Positions 14,701-48,150 of a DNA stretch of 48,150 bases are shown piece by piece. This DNA is from Patescibacteria group bacterium (lineage in GTDB: Bacteria; Patescibacteriota; Minisyncoccia; Phycocordibacterales; JACZSL01). The stretch's first letter is position 1; every line of letters begins with the position of its first letter. The stretch lies in contig JACZSL010000005.1 of NCBI GenBank assembly GCA_022574205.1, positions 1-48,150 of the forward strand, written 5' to 3'. The notes below the pieces were generated by a model. The model had not been told where the DNA came from. It saw only the letters and a program-made list of their open reading frames with translations, and did no database searches. The translations under genes and the position numbers were made by a program.

Positions 14701-16848
14701 ATGAGTACAGATTTAAGCAAAACACGAAATTTTGGTATCGTTGCGCACGTAGACGCAGGAAAAACTACAACATCGGAACGGATTTTGTTCTATACGGGAA
14801 TGAGCCACAAAATTGGTGAAGTTCATGATGGCAATACAATAACTGACTGGATGGAACAAGAGCGAGAACGCGGTATTACTATTACCGCGGCGGCTGTTAC
14901 GTGTACGTGGCACAAATCCGGAACAGATAAGACTCCAGAAAATGCTATTCGTTTTAATATTATAGACACACCCGGACATATCGACTTTACTTCAGAGGTA
15001 AAACGTTCAATGCGCGTCTTAGATGGCGCCGTTGTGGTCTTTGATGGTGTTGCCGGCGTTGAACCGCAATCTGAGACAAACTGGCGCTATGCAGCAGAAG
15101 CGAACGTACCGCGCCTTTGTTTCATCAATAAACTTGACCGCACCGGTGCGGATTTTGAACGTTCATACGCGAGCATACTAGACAGACTTTCCAAGAAAGC
15201 AGTCAGACTCCAAATACCTATAGGCGAGGAAGAACATCATGAGGGAGTCATTGACGTTCTTGAGAAGAAAGCATTCCACTTCGAAGGCGAGATGGGAATT
15301 AATGTTGTTGAAGTTGATATCCCAGAGAATCTTTCAGCTCAAGTAGAGAAATACCACCATGAACTCGTCGAGCGCATAGTAGAAAATGACGAGAGCCTTT
15401 TAGAGGCATTTCTCGAAGGAAATGAGCCTAATCTTACTGACTTAAAGAGAGTCCTTAGAGAGGCAGTTATCTCAAATGAAATCTTCCCTGTGCTTTGTGG
15501 TTCTGCACTCAAAAACAAAGGTGTTCAAAAAGTACTAGACGCTGTTGTTGATTATCTTCCGTCTCCAATAGACCTTCCGCCAGCAAAAGGTGTGCATCCG
15601 GACACCGGCGAAGAAATCGAGAGAAAAGCGGATGTGAACGAACCATTTTCGGCACTTGTTTTTAAACTTCAAACAGATCCTTTTGTAGGTCAACTCTCAT
15701 TCTTTCGTGTGTATTCTGGTGGCGTCAAAGCAGGTTCATACGTATATAACTCAATAACGAGAAAGAGAGAACGTGTTGGACGAATTGTTCGACTTCAAGC
15801 CGACAAGCGGGAGGAAGTGCAGGAAGTCTCAACAGGAGAAATCGCTGCAATGGTGGGGATGAAGGACGCTAAGATCGGGCACACACTTTGTGATGAAGCA
15901 CAGCCTATCATTCTTGAAGAAATGACTTTCCCGGAGCCTGTCGTTTCAGTCCGTATCGAACCAAATACAAAAGCCGATCAGGAGAAAATGGGGATCGCTC
16001 TTTCTAAATTGTCCGACGAGGATCCCACCTTTAAAGTGTCTATTGACGAAGAAACACTCGAAACTATAATTTCCGGTATGGGAGAGCTTCACCTTGAAAT
16101 CCTTGTTGATCGAATGAAACGAGAATTTTCTGTTGGAGCTAACATCGGTAAACCGCAAGTTGCATATAAAGAAACAATTCGCGGAACAGCAGAAGCGGAA
16201 AGCAAATATATCAAGCAAACAGGCGGTCGTGGTCAGTACGGACACGTAAAGATTAGGATTAAACCACTTGAAGACTTTCCGGAGGACAAGAAACTTCCTA
16301 AGAATGTGAAGCGTAGCGAGGGATTTGAGTTTATAAACTCAATCAAAGGAGGTGTTGTTCCCAGCGAGTATATTCCTGCAGTTGAGAAGGGTATTAAAGA
16401 AGCGATGGAAAAAGGTATTGTCGCAGGTTACAAAATGACTGATATTTCCATTGAACTTTACGATGGCTCATATCACGACGTTGACTCGTCAGAAATTGCA
16501 TTCAAAATAGCAGGTTCTCTTGCTTATCAAGACGCAGCTAAACGCGCAAAACCTGTTATCCTTGAGCCAATTATGAAAGTTGAAATAAACACACCGGAGA
16601 GGTTCATGGGCGACATCACAGGAAATATAAATTCAAAACGAGGACAAATTGAATCAATGGACGACAATGGAATGGGTGGAAGAAAAATAAACGCCAAAGT
16701 TCCACTTTCAGAAATGTTTGGATACACAACCATACTTCGCTCAATGACTGAGGGACGAGCGACTGCAATGATGGAGTTTGATCACTATGAAGTGGTTCCG
16801 GCTAATGTCTCGGAAGAAATCAAGAAAGCGCGGGGGACTGCGGAGTAA
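14701..16848 (+). CDS. fusA: Elongation factor G
   Basis: Ribosomal translocase GTPase of 715 residues from ATG 14701. G motifs are clear: AHVDAGKTT (P-loop), RGITITAAAVT (switch I), DTPGHIDF (G3), NKLDRTG (G4) and a GSALKNKG G5 segment, followed by domains II-V with the EF-G sequences GMGELHLEIL, RGQYGHVKI and GRATAMMEF. An upstream in-frame TTG at 14665 lies inside the attenuator hairpin and is rejected. Length and order are normal for bacterial EF-G. Confidence 0.97.
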   Translation: MSTDLSKTRNFGIVAHVDAGKTTTSERILFYTGMSHKIGEVHDGNTITDWMEQERERGITITAAAVTCTWHKSGTDKTPENAIRFNIIDTPGHIDFTSEVKRSMRVLDGAVVVFDGVAGVEPQSETNWRYAAEANVPRLCFINKLDRTGADFERSYASILDRLSKKAVRLQIPIGEEEHHEGVIDVLEKKAFHFEGEMGINVVEVDIPENLSAQVEKYHHELVERIVENDESLLEAFLEGNEPNLTDLKRVLREAVISNEIFPVLCGSALKNKGVQKVLDAVVDYLPSPIDLPPAKGVHPDTGEEIERKADVNEPFSALVFKLQTDPFVGQLSFFRVYSGGVKAGSYVYNSITRKRERVGRIVRLQADKREEVQEVSTGEIAAMVGMKDAKIGHTLCDEAQPIILEEMTFPEPVVSVRIEPNTKADQEKMGIALSKLSDEDPTFKVSIDEETLETIISGMGELHLEILVDRMKREFSVGANIGKPQVAYKETIRGTAEAESKYIKQTGGRGQYGHVKIRIKPLEDFPEDKKLPKNVKRSEGFEFINSIKGGVVPSEYIPAVEKGIKEAMEKGIVAGYKMTDISIELYDGSYHDVDSSEIAFKIAGSLAYQDAAKRAKPVILEPIMKVEINTPERFMGDITGNINSKRGQIESMDDNGMGGRKINAKVPLSEMFGYTTILRSMTEGRATAMMEFDHYEVVPANVSEEIKKARGTAE

Positions 16849-43497: not shown

Positions 43498-43847
43498 AAA
43501 AAAATGTACTATTGATACCCTTACCCTAGCTCCGGGTTGGACCCGCGCTTTGGCGGGCTTATTTGCACCGGGAATCTCCCGAGTTTACACTGCTTGCACA
43601 GCGGTCCTCTCTTGAGGAAACAAATAAATATCTTGAAGTGTTTTTACTCCTCCGCGCAGGCCCCAGGTCAAACTTCTTACACCCGTACCCGCTTTGCGCT
43701 CATGATTCTCTCCCTGTCTCTATCAGCCGTTCAAGGGATTCTCGTTGCTCATTTCATGAGATCAGCCCAACGTTAGCCGGGCCTCAGTTTCTGGTCCGCC
43801 TATGGCGGAATGAGTCCCAGCCTAGTCGTCTGACTAGGATTGTTTCT
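43498..43847 (-). ncRNA. Candidate structured non-coding RNA, family not recognised
   Basis: About 350 nt without a credible gene and visibly richer in G+C than its A+T-rich surroundings. On the minus strand it has a consensus promoter and ends at an intrinsic terminator. It is full of short hairpins: CCTAGTC/GACTAGG, CCGCC/GGCGG, CTCATG/CATGAG enclosed by CAACG/CGTTG, CCTC/GAGG, CGGGA/TCCCG and CCCGC/GCGGG. A segment TGTAAACTCGGGAG...GGTGCAAATAAG is loosely like the CR-IV side of RNase P RNA, but the P4 core (GAGGAAAGTCC) and tmRNA ends are missing. Identity open. Confidence 0.55.
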
Positions 43848-43853
43848 GTCTTT

Positions 43854-43881
43854 ATAATAATGGAAATAAATGTTGTGTCAA
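43854..43881 (-). promoter_or_regulatory. Promoter of the candidate RNA
   Basis: On the minus strand TTGACA (43876-43881), 16 bp, TATTAT (43854-43859). Confidence 0.7.
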
Positions 43882-43883
43882 AT

Positions 43884-44018
43884 CAAATAAACTATTTTAA
43901 ACTTCCATATATCTCACATACTTCTATATATGACGGGAGATTAATGAATGACGCCTGCCACGTAACTACCGCGTAGCGTTATGGTACTGGGGTTAGAACC
44001 TACCTCTACGAGAGTCAT
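43884..44018 (+). repeat. Family B repeat, copy 1
   Basis: Order of shared blocks: CTATTTTAAACTTCCATATA, CTTCTATATATGACGGGAGA, TTAATGAATGACGCCTGCC, an imperfect hairpin around CTAC-CGC-GTAG, then GGTACTGGGGTTAGAACCT (core GTTAGAACCT at 43992-44001). The 48 bases around the hairpin are nearly identical to copy 2. Confidence 0.8.
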
Positions 44019-44089
44019 TTTCAGTGTTTTTTAAATATTAATATTCTAGCTGTATTGAACATGAAAAGTATTTCTACTATACTTAAAAT

Positions 44090-44479
44090 ATGAAATATAG
44101 TTACAGTAAAAGTACAAACCTTTCTTTTCAGGAAGCAATAGAAAAAGTGAAGGAGGAACTTACTAAAGAAGGATTTGGTGTGCTTACAGAAATTGATATA
44201 AAAGCAACACTGAAAGAGAAGTTGAATATTGACTTTGACAACTATGTAATCCTCGGTGCATGCAACCCACCGTTCGCACACAAATCACTTCTTGCTGAAA
44301 AAGAAATCGGCCTCTTTTTGCCGTGCAACGTTATTGTGTATGAAGAGGATGGCAAAACAGTTGTCTCAACAATTGTACCGTCTGTACAAATGAGCATGAT
44401 TGAAAATAAAGAGTTAAAAAGTATTTCAGGTGAAGTAGAAGATGGGTTAAAGAAAGTTATAGACTCACTTCCAAGTTAA
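44090..44479 (+). CDS. DUF302 family protein
   Basis: A 129-residue protein with the DUF302 layout: a strand-helix start (SYSKSTNLSFQEAIEKVKEE), EGFGVLTEIDIKATLKEKLN, the conserved YVILGACNPPFAHKSLLAEK and IGLFLPCNVIVYEEDGKTVV. The single Cys in GACNPP is typical. Function of the family is not settled (often linked to stress or metal genes). A TATACT box ends 8 nt before the ATG. It lies between family B copies 1 and 2, like a single-gene cassette. Confidence 0.85.
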   Translation: MKYSYSKSTNLSFQEAIEKVKEELTKEGFGVLTEIDIKATLKEKLNIDFDNYVILGACNPPFAHKSLLAEKEIGLFLPCNVIVYEEDGKTVVSTIVPSVQMSMIENKELKSISGEVEDGLKKVIDSLPS

Positions 44480-44600
44480 AGCTATTTTATACTTCTATAT
44501 ATCCCTGCTTACAGCAGGCAAGTATTGTGGGAACTATGCCTGCCACGTAACTACCGCGTAGCGTTATGGTACTGGGGTTATAACCTACCTGTTTTGCACC
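44480..44600 (+). repeat. Family B repeat, copy 2
   Basis: Starts one base after the DUF302 stop. It has CTATTTTATACTTCTATATA, a CCTGC/GCAGG hairpin, ATTGTGGGAACTATG, then the same hairpin block as copy 1 and the core GTTATAACCT (44577-44586) within a perfect palindrome GGTTATAACC, followed by GTTTTGCACCTTAAAG. Confidence 0.8.
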
Positions 44601-44692
44601 TTAAAGAACCACTTTAGAAAATGAAAAAAGTTGTAATATAAAAGAAAACAACTAAACAGCAATTGAATTAAGCATAGTATTCAAAAAATCTC

Positions 44693-45235
44693 TTAGTCTG
44701 TCACTTGAGAATTTTTGTTTTGCGACAAGTTAATTACATCCTTAATTAACCCGTTAGATATGTGGAATGTTTTTCCTTCGTCATCTTTCAATACGGTTGA
44801 GCGCATAGTAATCCTTACAACTTGTCCTTCAAAGCTGCCTATTTTTACTTTATCACCAATCCCGTATTGATTTTCAATTAATATAAAAAGTCCTGAAACA
44901 AAATCTTTCACTAATGACTGGGCACCAAAACCAATTGCCAAACCTATTACTCCTGCACCTGCTAAAACTGGTCGTATATCGATACCTAACAGACTCAGAG
45001 TCATGAGTAAAATTACAACATAAATGACGACATTTCCTGTTGTTATAATTATTTTTCCCAGAGTTTCCGTCCTCTTTTCTTTTTGAGAAACGTGATCATC
45101 ATCTCCATCGTCTACTATATGGACAAGGTGGTTAACTGCAACCCTGAGTAGAAATCTGCCCAAAAAAAACAAGGCAAGAATCCCCACAACGTCTACTGTG
45201 TTCTCTTTGACAATAGTAAGTATAAATTCTTGCAT
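44693..45235 (-). CDS. MscS-family mechanosensitive channel, minimal form
   Basis: A 180-residue protein with two N-terminal helices, a charged loop (VDDGDDDHVSQKEKRTETLG), the pore helix segment GVIGLAIGFGAQSLVKDFVS with GLFILIENQYGIGDKVKIG, and the beta domain (FEGQVVRITMRSTVLKDDEG, HISNGLIKDVINLS). It ends soon after, lacking the alpha/beta C-terminal domain of E. coli MscS (286 aa). It would relieve osmotic downshock. It is the only minus-strand gene between family B copies. Confidence 0.88.
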   Translation of the reverse strand: MQEFILTIVKENTVDVVGILALFFLGRFLLRVAVNHLVHIVDDGDDDHVSQKEKRTETLGKIIITTGNVVIYVVILLMTLSLLGIDIRPVLAGAGVIGLAIGFGAQSLVKDFVSGLFILIENQYGIGDKVKIGSFEGQVVRITMRSTVLKDDEGKTFHISNGLIKDVINLSQNKNSQVTD

Positions 45236-45240
45236 GATAT

Positions 45241-45469
45241 TTAACCTATCACTTATAACAAAAATTGCAATACGGAATCAGTATAATTGAAAAGATTGTT
45301 TGTTAGGTGTAAATGATAATAGGGACAGGCATAAATAAATCGTAAAAAGTGACGTAATTACTTAGGGAAGACAAGTTGTGTGTTGTATCTTGCTCGACAA
45401 TACATAGTAAATAATGTTTTGTAAAGCAAAATTGTTCAATACTCTACTCACAAAAAATACCTTTTAAAA
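45241..45469. other. A+T-rich gap, no feature seen
   Basis: No gene, strong promoter or hairpin was found apart from the presumed mscS promoter near 45240-45300. Confidence 0.4.
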
Positions 45470-45690
45470 TAAGCTATTTTGAACTTCCACATATCTCACC
45501 CTTCACTGCGCTCAGGATCTTCAACATATTTCTATATACGACGGAGATTAATGAGTGACGTTAGGACCTATTTGATTGACCAAAAAAATATGCAGTATAT
45601 GCAATGTATGACAGAGTTTGCACAAACATGCAGAACATGAAGTGTCGAGGTGTGATTGTGGGACTATGTTAGAACCTGTTGTTTTTGATC
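45470..45690 (+). repeat. Family B repeat, copy 3 (with a second core)
   Basis: Starts CTATTTTGAACTTCCACATA, keeps CTATATACGACGGAGATTAA and TGAGTGAC, then a core-like GTTAGGACCT (45560-45569). After a 98-bp unique segment comes ATTGTGGGACTATG, also present in copy 2, and a second core GTTAGAACCT (45668-45677). The usual hairpin is missing. It looks like a mosaic or an insertion between two cores. Confidence 0.65.
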
Positions 45691-45702
45691 CTATTTTTGC
45701 TC

Positions 45703-45730
45703 TTGACATAGTTGAAAACAATGCTATTTT
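45703..45730 (+). promoter_or_regulatory. Promoter of the M49-like peptidase gene
   Basis: TTGACA (45703-45708), 16 bp, extended TGC and TATTTT (45725-45730). AGGAGG follows at 45762-45767 before ATG 45777. Confidence 0.7.
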
Positions 45731-45776
45731 GGAACTGGAAAGTTGGGTCCTTAAGCCTTGAAGGAGGTAAGTAAAA

Positions 45777-47201
45777 ATGGCTCATGCAACAGGCAAAACA
45801 CACGAACACATTCAGGTATCTATTCGGGCAGATGTATCACATCTGACGACCCACGACAGGCAAATTCTTTCTTTGTTGATTGAAGCAACTCGACTTATAA
45901 ATCCTGTCTATCTTACTCAGATGAAGCAGGACCTTGGCGGGACCAACGGCATCTTTGACAAGACGAGGGGCAACAATTACTACCCCGAAGGAATGACTCG
46001 CGATGATATTGAAGCGTATCTTGACGAACATCCCGACGAGACGGATGCCGTCATGAGCCCCTTCACCGTTGTTGAGAGGAGTGATGAGCGGCTTATCACG
46101 ACACCGTACTCCGAGTACTATCGTGATCATCTTGATCGAGTCAGCTCGCTTCTTGAGGAAGCAGCACAACTCACGGATAATGAGTCATTCAGAAAATTCC
46201 TTTTGGGCAAAGCGAAAGCATTTCGTACCAACGAATATCGTACAAGTGACATCGATTGGGTGCATGTTGACGGTGTACCTCTGGAGCTTACCATCGGTCC
46301 TTACGAAAGTTCCGAAGACAAACTCTTCGGAGTGAAGCGAGACATCGAGGGTGTACTCGGAGTCGTACTTTCGCAAGAAACTGCAGAGGCACAGATGTAC
46401 CAAGAACAGGTGGCAAGGTTCGATGCTCATCTTGGGAAGAAGTATGGTTACACTGCCTCCACAACACTGACGCCCATGGTGGTCATGGACGAAGTCCTTG
46501 TCGGCGGTCGTCCGTGGTATGGTTATGTCCCGATGGCTTATAATCTTCCGAATGACGCTGATATCCAGAAGGAAGTCGGGTCCAAGAAAGTGTTCATCCG
46601 GAATATCATGCGGGCGAAGATGGAGCTCATCACTAAGCTCATCGCGGAAAGTGTACTCGACCCACATGTTGCAGCTTTGGTTGAGCCTTCGATCTTCATG
46701 AGTTTTATCATCGGACATGAATCATCACACGGACTCAGCTTCCGCTTTAGCGGTAACGACTTTCTCACTCTCGGTTCGCCACTTGAAGAAGGAAAGGCAG
46801 ATGTATTTGGTATGATCTTCCTCTATTTCCTCGCTGAGAGTGGAATTATCGACAGAGACATAGCTGAGAGAGCAGTGATCACTAATCTCGCGGATGGTTT
46901 ACGCCAGATTCGGTTTGGGATCGAAGAAGCTCATGCTGTCGGGACTCTCATTCAGTACAACTGGTTCCTGAAGCACGGCGCCATGCAGTTTGGTGGCAAG
47001 GGATTGGAATTCAAGCCGGCACTGTTCAAACAAGTGCTTGATGGTCTTGGTGACGAGTTCTATGCATTGTCGCAGACACACAACCACGAGATAGCACAAC
47101 AATTCGTGGATGAATGGGGTCGGGTGCCGGACGAAGTTCGCACGATGATCGCATCGTTTGATGATATTCCTATCGACATTGATCCGGTTTTTGAAGTCTA
47201 A
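45777..47201 (+). CDS. Dipeptidyl-peptidase III-like (M49-related) zinc peptidase
   Basis: A 474-residue protein. FIIGHESSHGLSFRFSGND gives an HExxH site (about residues 319-323) and PLEEGKADVFGMIFLYFLAE supplies the third ligand in EExxAD, the pattern of bacterial DPP III-like proteins; classical M49 enzymes have HExxGH. No signal peptide. The first half contains LINPVYLTQMKQDLGG and HVDGVPLELTIGPYESSEDK, also family-like. Its codon use is visibly more G+C-rich than neighbours and it has a canonical promoter and AGGAGG site, so recent transfer is plausible. Substrate unknown. Confidence 0.8.
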   Translation: MAHATGKTHEHIQVSIRADVSHLTTHDRQILSLLIEATRLINPVYLTQMKQDLGGTNGIFDKTRGNNYYPEGMTRDDIEAYLDEHPDETDAVMSPFTVVERSDERLITTPYSEYYRDHLDRVSSLLEEAAQLTDNESFRKFLLGKAKAFRTNEYRTSDIDWVHVDGVPLELTIGPYESSEDKLFGVKRDIEGVLGVVLSQETAEAQMYQEQVARFDAHLGKKYGYTASTTLTPMVVMDEVLVGGRPWYGYVPMAYNLPNDADIQKEVGSKKVFIRNIMRAKMELITKLIAESVLDPHVAALVEPSIFMSFIIGHESSHGLSFRFSGNDFLTLGSPLEEGKADVFGMIFLYFLAESGIIDRDIAERAVITNLADGLRQIRFGIEEAHAVGTLIQYNWFLKHGAMQFGGKGLEFKPALFKQVLDGLGDEFYALSQTHNHEIAQQFVDEWGRVPDEVRTMIASFDDIPIDIDPVFEV

Positions 47202-47213
47202 TCAACGTTGTAT

Positions 47214-47247
47214 GGCTGGGAGGTTTTAACCTCTCAGCCTTTTTTTA
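47214..47247 (+). terminator. Terminator of the M49-like gene
   Basis: GGCTGGGAGGTT (47214-47225) pairs with AACCTCTCAGCC (47228-47239), followed by seven T. Confidence 0.9.
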
Positions 47248-47284
47248 TTTTTTCGAATAGATAGCAAATATGTTCTTACAAAAT

Positions 47285-47400
47285 AAGGATTTTATTCTTC
47301 TATATACTTCTATGTACGACGGAGATTAATGAATGACTCCTGCCCCGTAGTGAGCTTTGCTCTACTACTGGGGTTAGAACCTGTGGTTTTGTATCTTAAA
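47285..47400 (+). repeat. Family B repeat, copy 4
   Basis: CTTCTATATACTTCTATGTA, CGACGGAGATTAATGAATGA, then a hairpin with different sequence but the same position (GTAGTGAGC / GCTCTACTAC between CCCC and GGGG), the core GTTAGAACCT (47373-47382) and GTGGTTTTGTATCTTAAAA. Conserved shape with changed stem sequence argues that the hairpin itself matters. Confidence 0.8.
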
Positions 47401-47454: not shown

Positions 47455-47778
47455 TTATGCGGCGAGAGCGAGATCTTCCTCGCATGCCACCGGAATTGTG
47501 ATCACATTGACCGAGACGTTAATGTCCGCGAAGACATTGAGCGGAATCACCAGGCCGGGTCGGCTGATGATCGCAACTTCGTCCTGAACATACTCGATTT
47601 CGCTTCCCGGTGTCTCGTGGAACCTGACGGTTTCGGTTTCTTCGATACCGTAATTTATCTGAACATCGGTTGGGATGTTAGAAAAATTCATTACTGCGCC
47701 GTCCTTGTAACACATGGCGCAATCTTCCAGGCTCACATCGGGTTTGTGGAACCCAGCGATGCCGTAACCAATTGACAC
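47455..47778 (-). CDS. Small acidic protein of unknown function
   Basis: A 107-residue acidic product, beta-rich by appearance (VQINYGIEETETVRFHETPG, VAIISRPGLVIPLNVFADIN), with three cysteines and no signal peptide. The start is uncertain. GTG 47778 has AGGAG 11 nt upstream, and the frame is open further to about 47970 without an ATG, but that part overlaps the better-looking plus-strand gene. Codon use is G+C-rich like the M49-like gene nearby. No family recognised. Confidence 0.5.
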   Translation of the reverse strand: MSIGYGIAGFHKPDVSLEDCAMCYKDGAVMNFSNIPTDVQINYGIEETETVRFHETPGSEIEYVQDEVAIISRPGLVIPLNVFADINVSVNVITIPVACEEDLALAA

Positions 47779-47854: not shown

Positions 47855-48150
47855 ATGGTCCCGCTGGGTATGAGAATACCCGGTGAGATTCCTTTGGAGC
47901 TCTTTGAGGATCCGAACTCATACGCACACCTGTTGCCACCAATGAATTTTGATAAGCCGAGAGAGCGCTTTCAGGGTGCGGTAAGATACGTGTCAAATTG
48001 TCTCGGCGGTCGTCTGATAGAAATGTTGGAATCTGAGGAAGAGCCAAAACCAGTCTTTGAGCGTTGGAGCGAACTTTTCGAGTTGCAACTAACAGCCACT
48101 GACAATGTGATGGACGCCTTCAAACACACAAATGCAGATCTTGATGAACT
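47855..48150 (+). CDS. Unknown protein, 3' end beyond the window
   Basis: An open frame from ATG 47855 (alternative ATG 47870) runs off the window end, giving at least 98 residues: MRIPGEIPLELFEDPNSYAH, then NFDKPRERFQGAVRYVSNCL and a Glu-rich helical part (ESEEEPKPVFERWSELFELQ). The residue pattern and codon use look real, and are G+C-rich as in its neighbours. No family recognised from this part. It overlaps an upstream extension of the minus-strand frame at 47455, which limits that gene's start. Confidence 0.55.
   Translation, partial: MVPLGMRIPGEIPLELFEDPNSYAHLLPPMNFDKPRERFQGAVRYVSNCLGGRLIEMLESEEEPKPVFERWSELFELQLTATDNVMDAFKHTNADLDE

Follow-up and report, generated by a model that had tools for sequence, protein, structure and literature searches.

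A probable array of single-gene cassettes with a proposed integron-like mode of exchange at a 33-bp site of Paceibacteria

Four repeats near the right end of a contig from a Patescibacteria genome probably delimit a swappable array of single-gene cassettes, in an integron-like system whose boundary sites recur across the class Paceibacteria and would recombine with each other. The window, that is, the whole stretch of DNA analyzed, is one entire contig (C19, 48,150 nt) of a 650-kb assembly of 23 contigs (genome G000; G, C, and L numbers denote genomes, contigs, and loci). The repeat copies start at 43885, 44475, 45467, and 47280, all on the same strand, and GTTAGAACCT or a version with one mismatch is found at 43992, 44577, 45560, 45668, and 47373. 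As the 20-mer GACGGAGATTAATGAATGAC, with at most three mismatches, matched three times against 0.00 expected, the four same-strand copies described in a first-pass annotation of this DNA are confirmed far beyond chance. The placement of a DUF302, an MscS-type, and an M49-like gene, each between successive copies, is confirmed too. The high G+C content noted there at the right end was also found, the M49 gene reaching 48.6%, a value attained by only 0.6% of the 1425-bp windows of the genome. Each repeat is a composite: a cassette-junction site with the core TGRAYGAYGTTAGAACC and, in copies 1, 2, and 4, an inserted hairpin. Copy 3 carries no hairpin and has two cores exactly 108 nt apart with no gene between them. 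This arrangement had been read as something inserted at a core; the two cores and the gene-free segment stand, but they are not the accident of one insertion, as double sites with cores exactly 108 nt apart are a standard form, found in several elements, in different genomes, and in other Parcubacteria families.

The strict 17-mer TGRAYGAYGTTAGAACC was detected in 52 of 384 Paceibacteria genomes and its reversed control in none. Alignment of 66 sites gave sharp motif limits from -11 to +21 (33 bp), with a variable left half (approximately GCTCCGnnTAG), a near-invariant TGGACGAYGTTAGAACC, and then TnTTT. When the 33-bp matrix was run over 762 kb of fetched DNA, 118 sites scored above 14 bits, while the reversed control gave 0. 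Most loci had been fetched for a site that they contained, but there was no selection on the strand of neighboring sites. Among adjacent sites 200-6000 bp apart, 59 pairs were on the same strand and 1 on opposite strands (binomial p ~1e-16), with a median spacing between neighbors of 1.04 kb, and exactly one open reading frame (ORF) of at least 60 amino acids (aa) was present in 39 of 62 intervals. G681 has 20 sites within 20 kb, and in G726 one array has 8 sites and another 5. Each of the four possible strand combinations is seen among the genes flanking a site, most commonly with both genes opposite to the site, which indicates that the site does not simply belong to the 5' or 3' region of a gene. 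Folds recognized among 20 array genes of G681 and G726 include NUDIX, glyoxalase, epimerase, dehydrogenase, YcaO, amidase, S49 peptidase, small kinase, and polyketide cyclase; with such genes, the cassettes look like integron cargo.

Single unrelated genes with typical cargo functions between same-strand sites would also be expected of an integron remnant, or cluster of attC sites lacking integron-integrases (CALIN), in which degenerate attC sites persist after loss of the integron integrase. The core GTTAGAAC is similar to the integron R box, GTTRRRY, but its seventh base is A and not Y. Moreover, an inverted core partner (GGTTCTAAC, one mismatch, within 200 bp) was present on each side at 3 of the 98 sites, against 2 and 6 in the reversed control. 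As single-stranded DNA, the core paired with its own flanks no more than with shuffled ones, apart from slightly higher pairing at its last two bases. On the integron-integrase model, whose cutoff is 265, ten recombinases of array genomes scored 78-137 bits. A CALIN origin is thus mostly refuted, and we consider it very unlikely. The earlier suggestion of gene cassettes ended by recombination sites other than canonical attC is supported by the same-strand arrays found across the class, in which an interval holds about one unrelated gene, and by the presence or absence of an array at an otherwise colinear locus.

That locus is in G726. In its congener G699 and in G502, a member of the same family, the series DegP, ClpB, and a 239-aa gene leads within 1.3 kb to an FFVRL gene and a sigma factor, and G691, also of this family, has one extra gene at the DegP/ClpB-FFVRL junction. 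In G726, the same junction is spread over 15.0 kb; the insert carries all 8 sites of the array, and colinearity resumes beyond it. The matrix scan found no cassette site in the gap of G699, G691, or G502. This comparison shows that the array is present in one lineage only among those compared; it does not show excision. Within the window genome, the scan located only the array and two single copies elsewhere; the sites are therefore not scattered evenly over the genome, and gene content between sites is variable rather than fixed.

In the explanation that we favor, a cassette would consist of a single boundary site and a single gene, which may point either way. Neighboring direct sites would recombine at or next to G^TTAGAACC, the proposed crossover point, and cassettes could thereby be excised, captured, and reshuffled. 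The single Xer-type tyrosine recombinase resident in the genome would act in trans on the double-stranded 33-bp sites. A REP-like hairpin (for repetitive extragenic palindromic) later interrupted three of the window's sites. The left and right halves of sites were not significantly correlated within G681, G690, G726, G576, or G045, and in the window family they occur in several combinations; although numbers are small, this is as expected from exchange at the core.

Xer is proposed because an Xer-like protein is the only recombinase common to most array genomes, each of which encodes one. In the window genome, the check for an integrase or other recombinase that the first-pass annotation had suggested gave one tyrosine recombinase, encoded on another contig, and no integron integrase: the protein is Xer-like, with XerC/XerD as best fit, and scored 103.5 bits on TIGR02249 (cutoff 265). 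If the cassette model is right, whether Xer would be the enzyme is a roughly even call. Serine recombinases were rejected as the common enzyme, being missing in 7 of 15 array genomes. In L216 (G665:C14), the Xer gene is apparently split by an intein-like insertion with endonuclease-type motifs; the ORF is 770 aa long, and recombinase sequence resumes at its end.

Several observations weigh against recombination of cassettes by such an enzyme. Three array genomes (G419, G197, and G199) have no detectable tyrosine recombinase, although metagenome-assembled genomes (MAGs) can be incomplete, and no recombinase gene adjoins an array. No clear inverted arms surround any center of the site, which is unusual for a site of a tyrosine recombinase. 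Recombination alone does not account for the conserved mini-ORF described below, and few cassette families are common to different arrays among those sampled. Finally, neither an excision circle nor a strain-level rearrangement was seen in genome comparisons that were all between species and included MAGs; for the window array itself, no near relative with the same flanks was available for a comparison of synteny.

The array genomes without a tyrosine recombinase would also fit with a transposase or mobile unit, for example of the Y1 or RAYT type (REP-associated tyrosine transposase), that inserts beside its own kind and builds arrays by serial insertion. Y1 transposases are encoded by 112 of 197 genomes of the order, and in G657, another congener of G726, one lies at the locus of the G726 array, followed by the contig end. 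However, the single Y1 gene of the window genome is on another contig, and the 33-bp site lacks a hairpin and any second end by which an element could be delimited. Left arms are alike within a genome while the right flanks vary by cassette, which also argues against this scenario. We therefore regard serial insertion as unlikely and retain site-specific exchange of cassettes as the probable explanation.

The hairpin had been taken as part of the repeat, and hence of the recombination site. This was not borne out. The element (35-39 nt, CCTGCC...GGGG) lies directly 5' of TTAGAACC in copies 1, 2, and 4, and both cores of copy 3 are clean. A query with the rest of the repeat retrieved the same site free of the hairpin from other genomes, with an unbroken ATGAACGAC-GTTAGAACCT in G001. 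As copy 3 lacks it, and so does the same site in a relative, the hairpin is a separate, nested insertion. Copies 1 and 2 have an identical hairpin, with no significant fold in its context; that of copy 4 has, as first reported, another sequence in the same place, and it folds strongly (DNA z = -4.15). When copy 4 was searched against 197 relatives, mostly the hairpin alone was recovered, in 33 genomes and with unrelated flanks. Across these genomes it is a short extragenic imperfect palindrome with conserved arms and bulges and a variable loop. A Y1 transposase is encoded in 25 of the 33 hairpin genomes versus 87 of the other 164 (p = 0.02). This dispersal, together with the more frequent Y1 transposase, is why we call the hairpin a REP-like insertion.

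It was presumably moved by a Y1 (RAYT-type) transposase, although the link to a particular transposase is indirect: the Y1 gene of the window genome is on C18, scores 50.5 on the REP-transposase model (cutoff 80), and has no hairpin copy beside it. As in REP/RAYT systems, the palindrome is dispersed and carriers more commonly encode a Y1 transposase; the difference is that all three intact hairpins of this type in the window genome are at the cassette core of the array, with two divergent ones elsewhere, and none adjoins the Y1 gene. We know of no REP with such a target preference for a cassette core. The three interrupted sites are probably damaged. In L131 (G206:C5) and L137 (G072:C33), this core is interrupted at GTTA^GAACC by a different palindrome (..GGTGAGCTTGTC..), so hairpin elements have entered the cassette site more than once. 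Hairpins in such arrays may thus be later insertions and not attC stems, and readers should interpret them with caution.

Roughly one site in three carries a conserved mini-ORF, M(D/N)DVRT..., which starts in the left half and runs through the core. Its tails fall into class I (..ECVKTFESRVV), class II (..IVxSW), and class III (..FYIPSL..). Read in the frame of the core, 28 of 145 distinct sites contain the class III (IP-type) motif, against 3-4 for the other frames, and the third positions of its codons vary; close pairs differ mainly at third positions. This in-frame conservation and the further tail classes are what one would expect if a small conserved gene or leader controlling expression had spread by ordinary duplication, with the cassette appearance as a by-product. 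The start codon, however, is CTG in 20 of the 145 sites and absent altogether in more, so the mini-ORF is not needed everywhere; many sites contain only very short ORFs, and the class I codon-position signal is flat across all pairs. Neighboring genes also have no fixed orientation to the site. A leader is accordingly quite unlikely as the origin of the arrays, and cassette exchange remains our preferred reading. That the 108-nt segment is simply protein-coding was likewise set aside, since the all-pairs codon-position test was flat, even though amino-acid motifs are conserved in frame.

Other possible origins of the site were considered and rejected. A riboswitch or known RNA was rejected: the window gave no Rfam match, three element loci gave tRNAs only, and there was no consistent consensus fold. 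A search of a plasmid collection with copy 1 returned no match. Nineteen viral contigs fit a loose pattern, but only two (L177 and L179) have scores of real sites, both at contig ends, and a viral origin was rejected on these grounds. L177, 14.8 kb long and classed as viral, carries a strong site (46 bits, 14707-14723) near its end, and several of its genes look by eye like phage structural genes; this contig possibly represents a link between cassettes and viruses, or else a chimeric or prophage-edge contig. Two sites from distant genomes, in L199 (3458-3474; G000:C11) and L234 (~5068; G726), have the same downstream tail (AGAATAAGGCTAAGTGGTGGGTT, AGGATAAGGCTAAGTGATGAGTT), which indicates that site tails come in families.

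The features of the array are listed in Table 1. Two further observations concern its surroundings. To its left, on the minus strand at 43500-43860, a stretch of ~360 nt with 50% G+C folds well as RNA (z = -2.8); it had no Rfam match and no homolog among the fetched loci, and may be a structured RNA of a new type adjoining the array. On C10 of the same genome (24997-25026; L005 1501-1530), the AT-rich repeat flank and a palindrome lie 46 bases from the contig end, and the assembly may thus break at another copy of the array.

Table 1 Features of the cassette array in the window
Feature	Coordinates	Strand	Remarks
AT-rich flank 5' of site 1, TTCYATAT twice ~22 bp apart	43885..43935	+	Also in copies 3 and 4 and in genomes G001 and G014
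Site 1, left half (GGAGATTAATGAATGACG)	43936..43953	+	Halves without hairpin score 23.1 bits
REP-like hairpin copy 1, 39 nt, at G^TTAGAACC	43954..43992	+	Related G001 site lacks the hairpin
Site 1, right half (TTAGAACCT)	43993..44001	+	
Cassette gene 1, DUF302 protein (PF03625)	44090..44479	+	
Site 2, left half, of the type found at right-hand cores in double sites (..ATTGTGGGAACTATG)	44521..44538	+	Weak full site, -4.6 bits
REP-like hairpin copy 2, identical to copy 1	44539..44577	+	
Site 2, right half (TTATAACCT)	44578..44586	+	
Cassette gene 2, MscS-type mechanosensitive channel	44693..45235	-	
Second palindromic element (CCTTCACTGCGCTCAGGATCTTCAA), inserted into the AT-rich flank of site 3, limits approximate	45499..45523	+	From comparison with copy 1; similar palindrome at the C10 contig end
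Site 3a, intact 33-bp site	45541..45573	+	19.6 bits
Mini-ORF MSDVRTYLIDQKNMQYMQCMTEFAQTCRT, class I, encoded by the site	45551..45640	+	
Site 3b, downstream member of the double site, 108 nt from 3a	45649..45681	+	20.1 bits
Cassette gene 3, M49-like metallopeptidase, high G+C	45777..47201	+	
Site 4, left half	47321..47338	+	Halves without hairpin score 17.7 bits
REP-like hairpin copy 3 of the array, 35 nt, with a different sequence	47339..47373	+	
Site 4, right half (TTAGAACCT)	47374..47382	+	
Gene after site 4, function unassigned	47455..47778	-	Contig ends at 48150; a further site beyond is not visible

How the reduced, probably host-dependent Paceibacteria gain genes is an open question, and a cassette system with a searchable 33-bp site makes it testable; the same site allows cassette content to be mined from existing genomes. 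A literature search, which excluded subscription papers and preprints, retrieved no description of integrons or cassettes in Paceibacteria, and the system is apparently undescribed so far. It is conceivable, if somewhat doubtful at present, that it is a separate system native to Paceibacteria, with double-stranded, direction-fixed 33-bp sites served by a general Xer-type (or other) enzyme, in which each recombination would also join two parts of a conserved mini-peptide gene, translation would run across the junctions, and cassettes would be a main route of gene gain. If this is true, these ultra-small genomes would acquire genes by a major route independent of integrons.

Like integrons, the arrays consist of single unrelated accessory genes with one site each, sites on one strand, an R-box-like core, and array content specific to the lineage. 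Unlike integrons, they have no integron integrase and no attC stem-loop or inverted R''/R' pair, and no attI was found, there being no integrase to anchor one; the site is instead 33 bp long and double-stranded, with a conserved right and a variable left half, often an in-frame mini-ORF, and Paceibacteria as hosts. The system would work like an integron but is not classed as one, because IntI and the attC fold, two defining features, are missing. A second comparison is with the Xer-mobilized dif (pdif) modules of Acinetobacter. Each of their sites spans 28 bp, with inverted 11-bp arms for XerC and XerD around a 6-bp spacer, and the orientation typically alternates from site to site. The sites described here, in contrast, are 33 bp long, nearly always in one orientation, and without clear inverted arms. 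C and D modules are named among the dif modules in one paper (PMC13141974). What the dif modules share with the Paceibacteria arrays is that short double-stranded sites bound gene modules; a chromosomal Xer that serves in trans would be a further, likely parallel.

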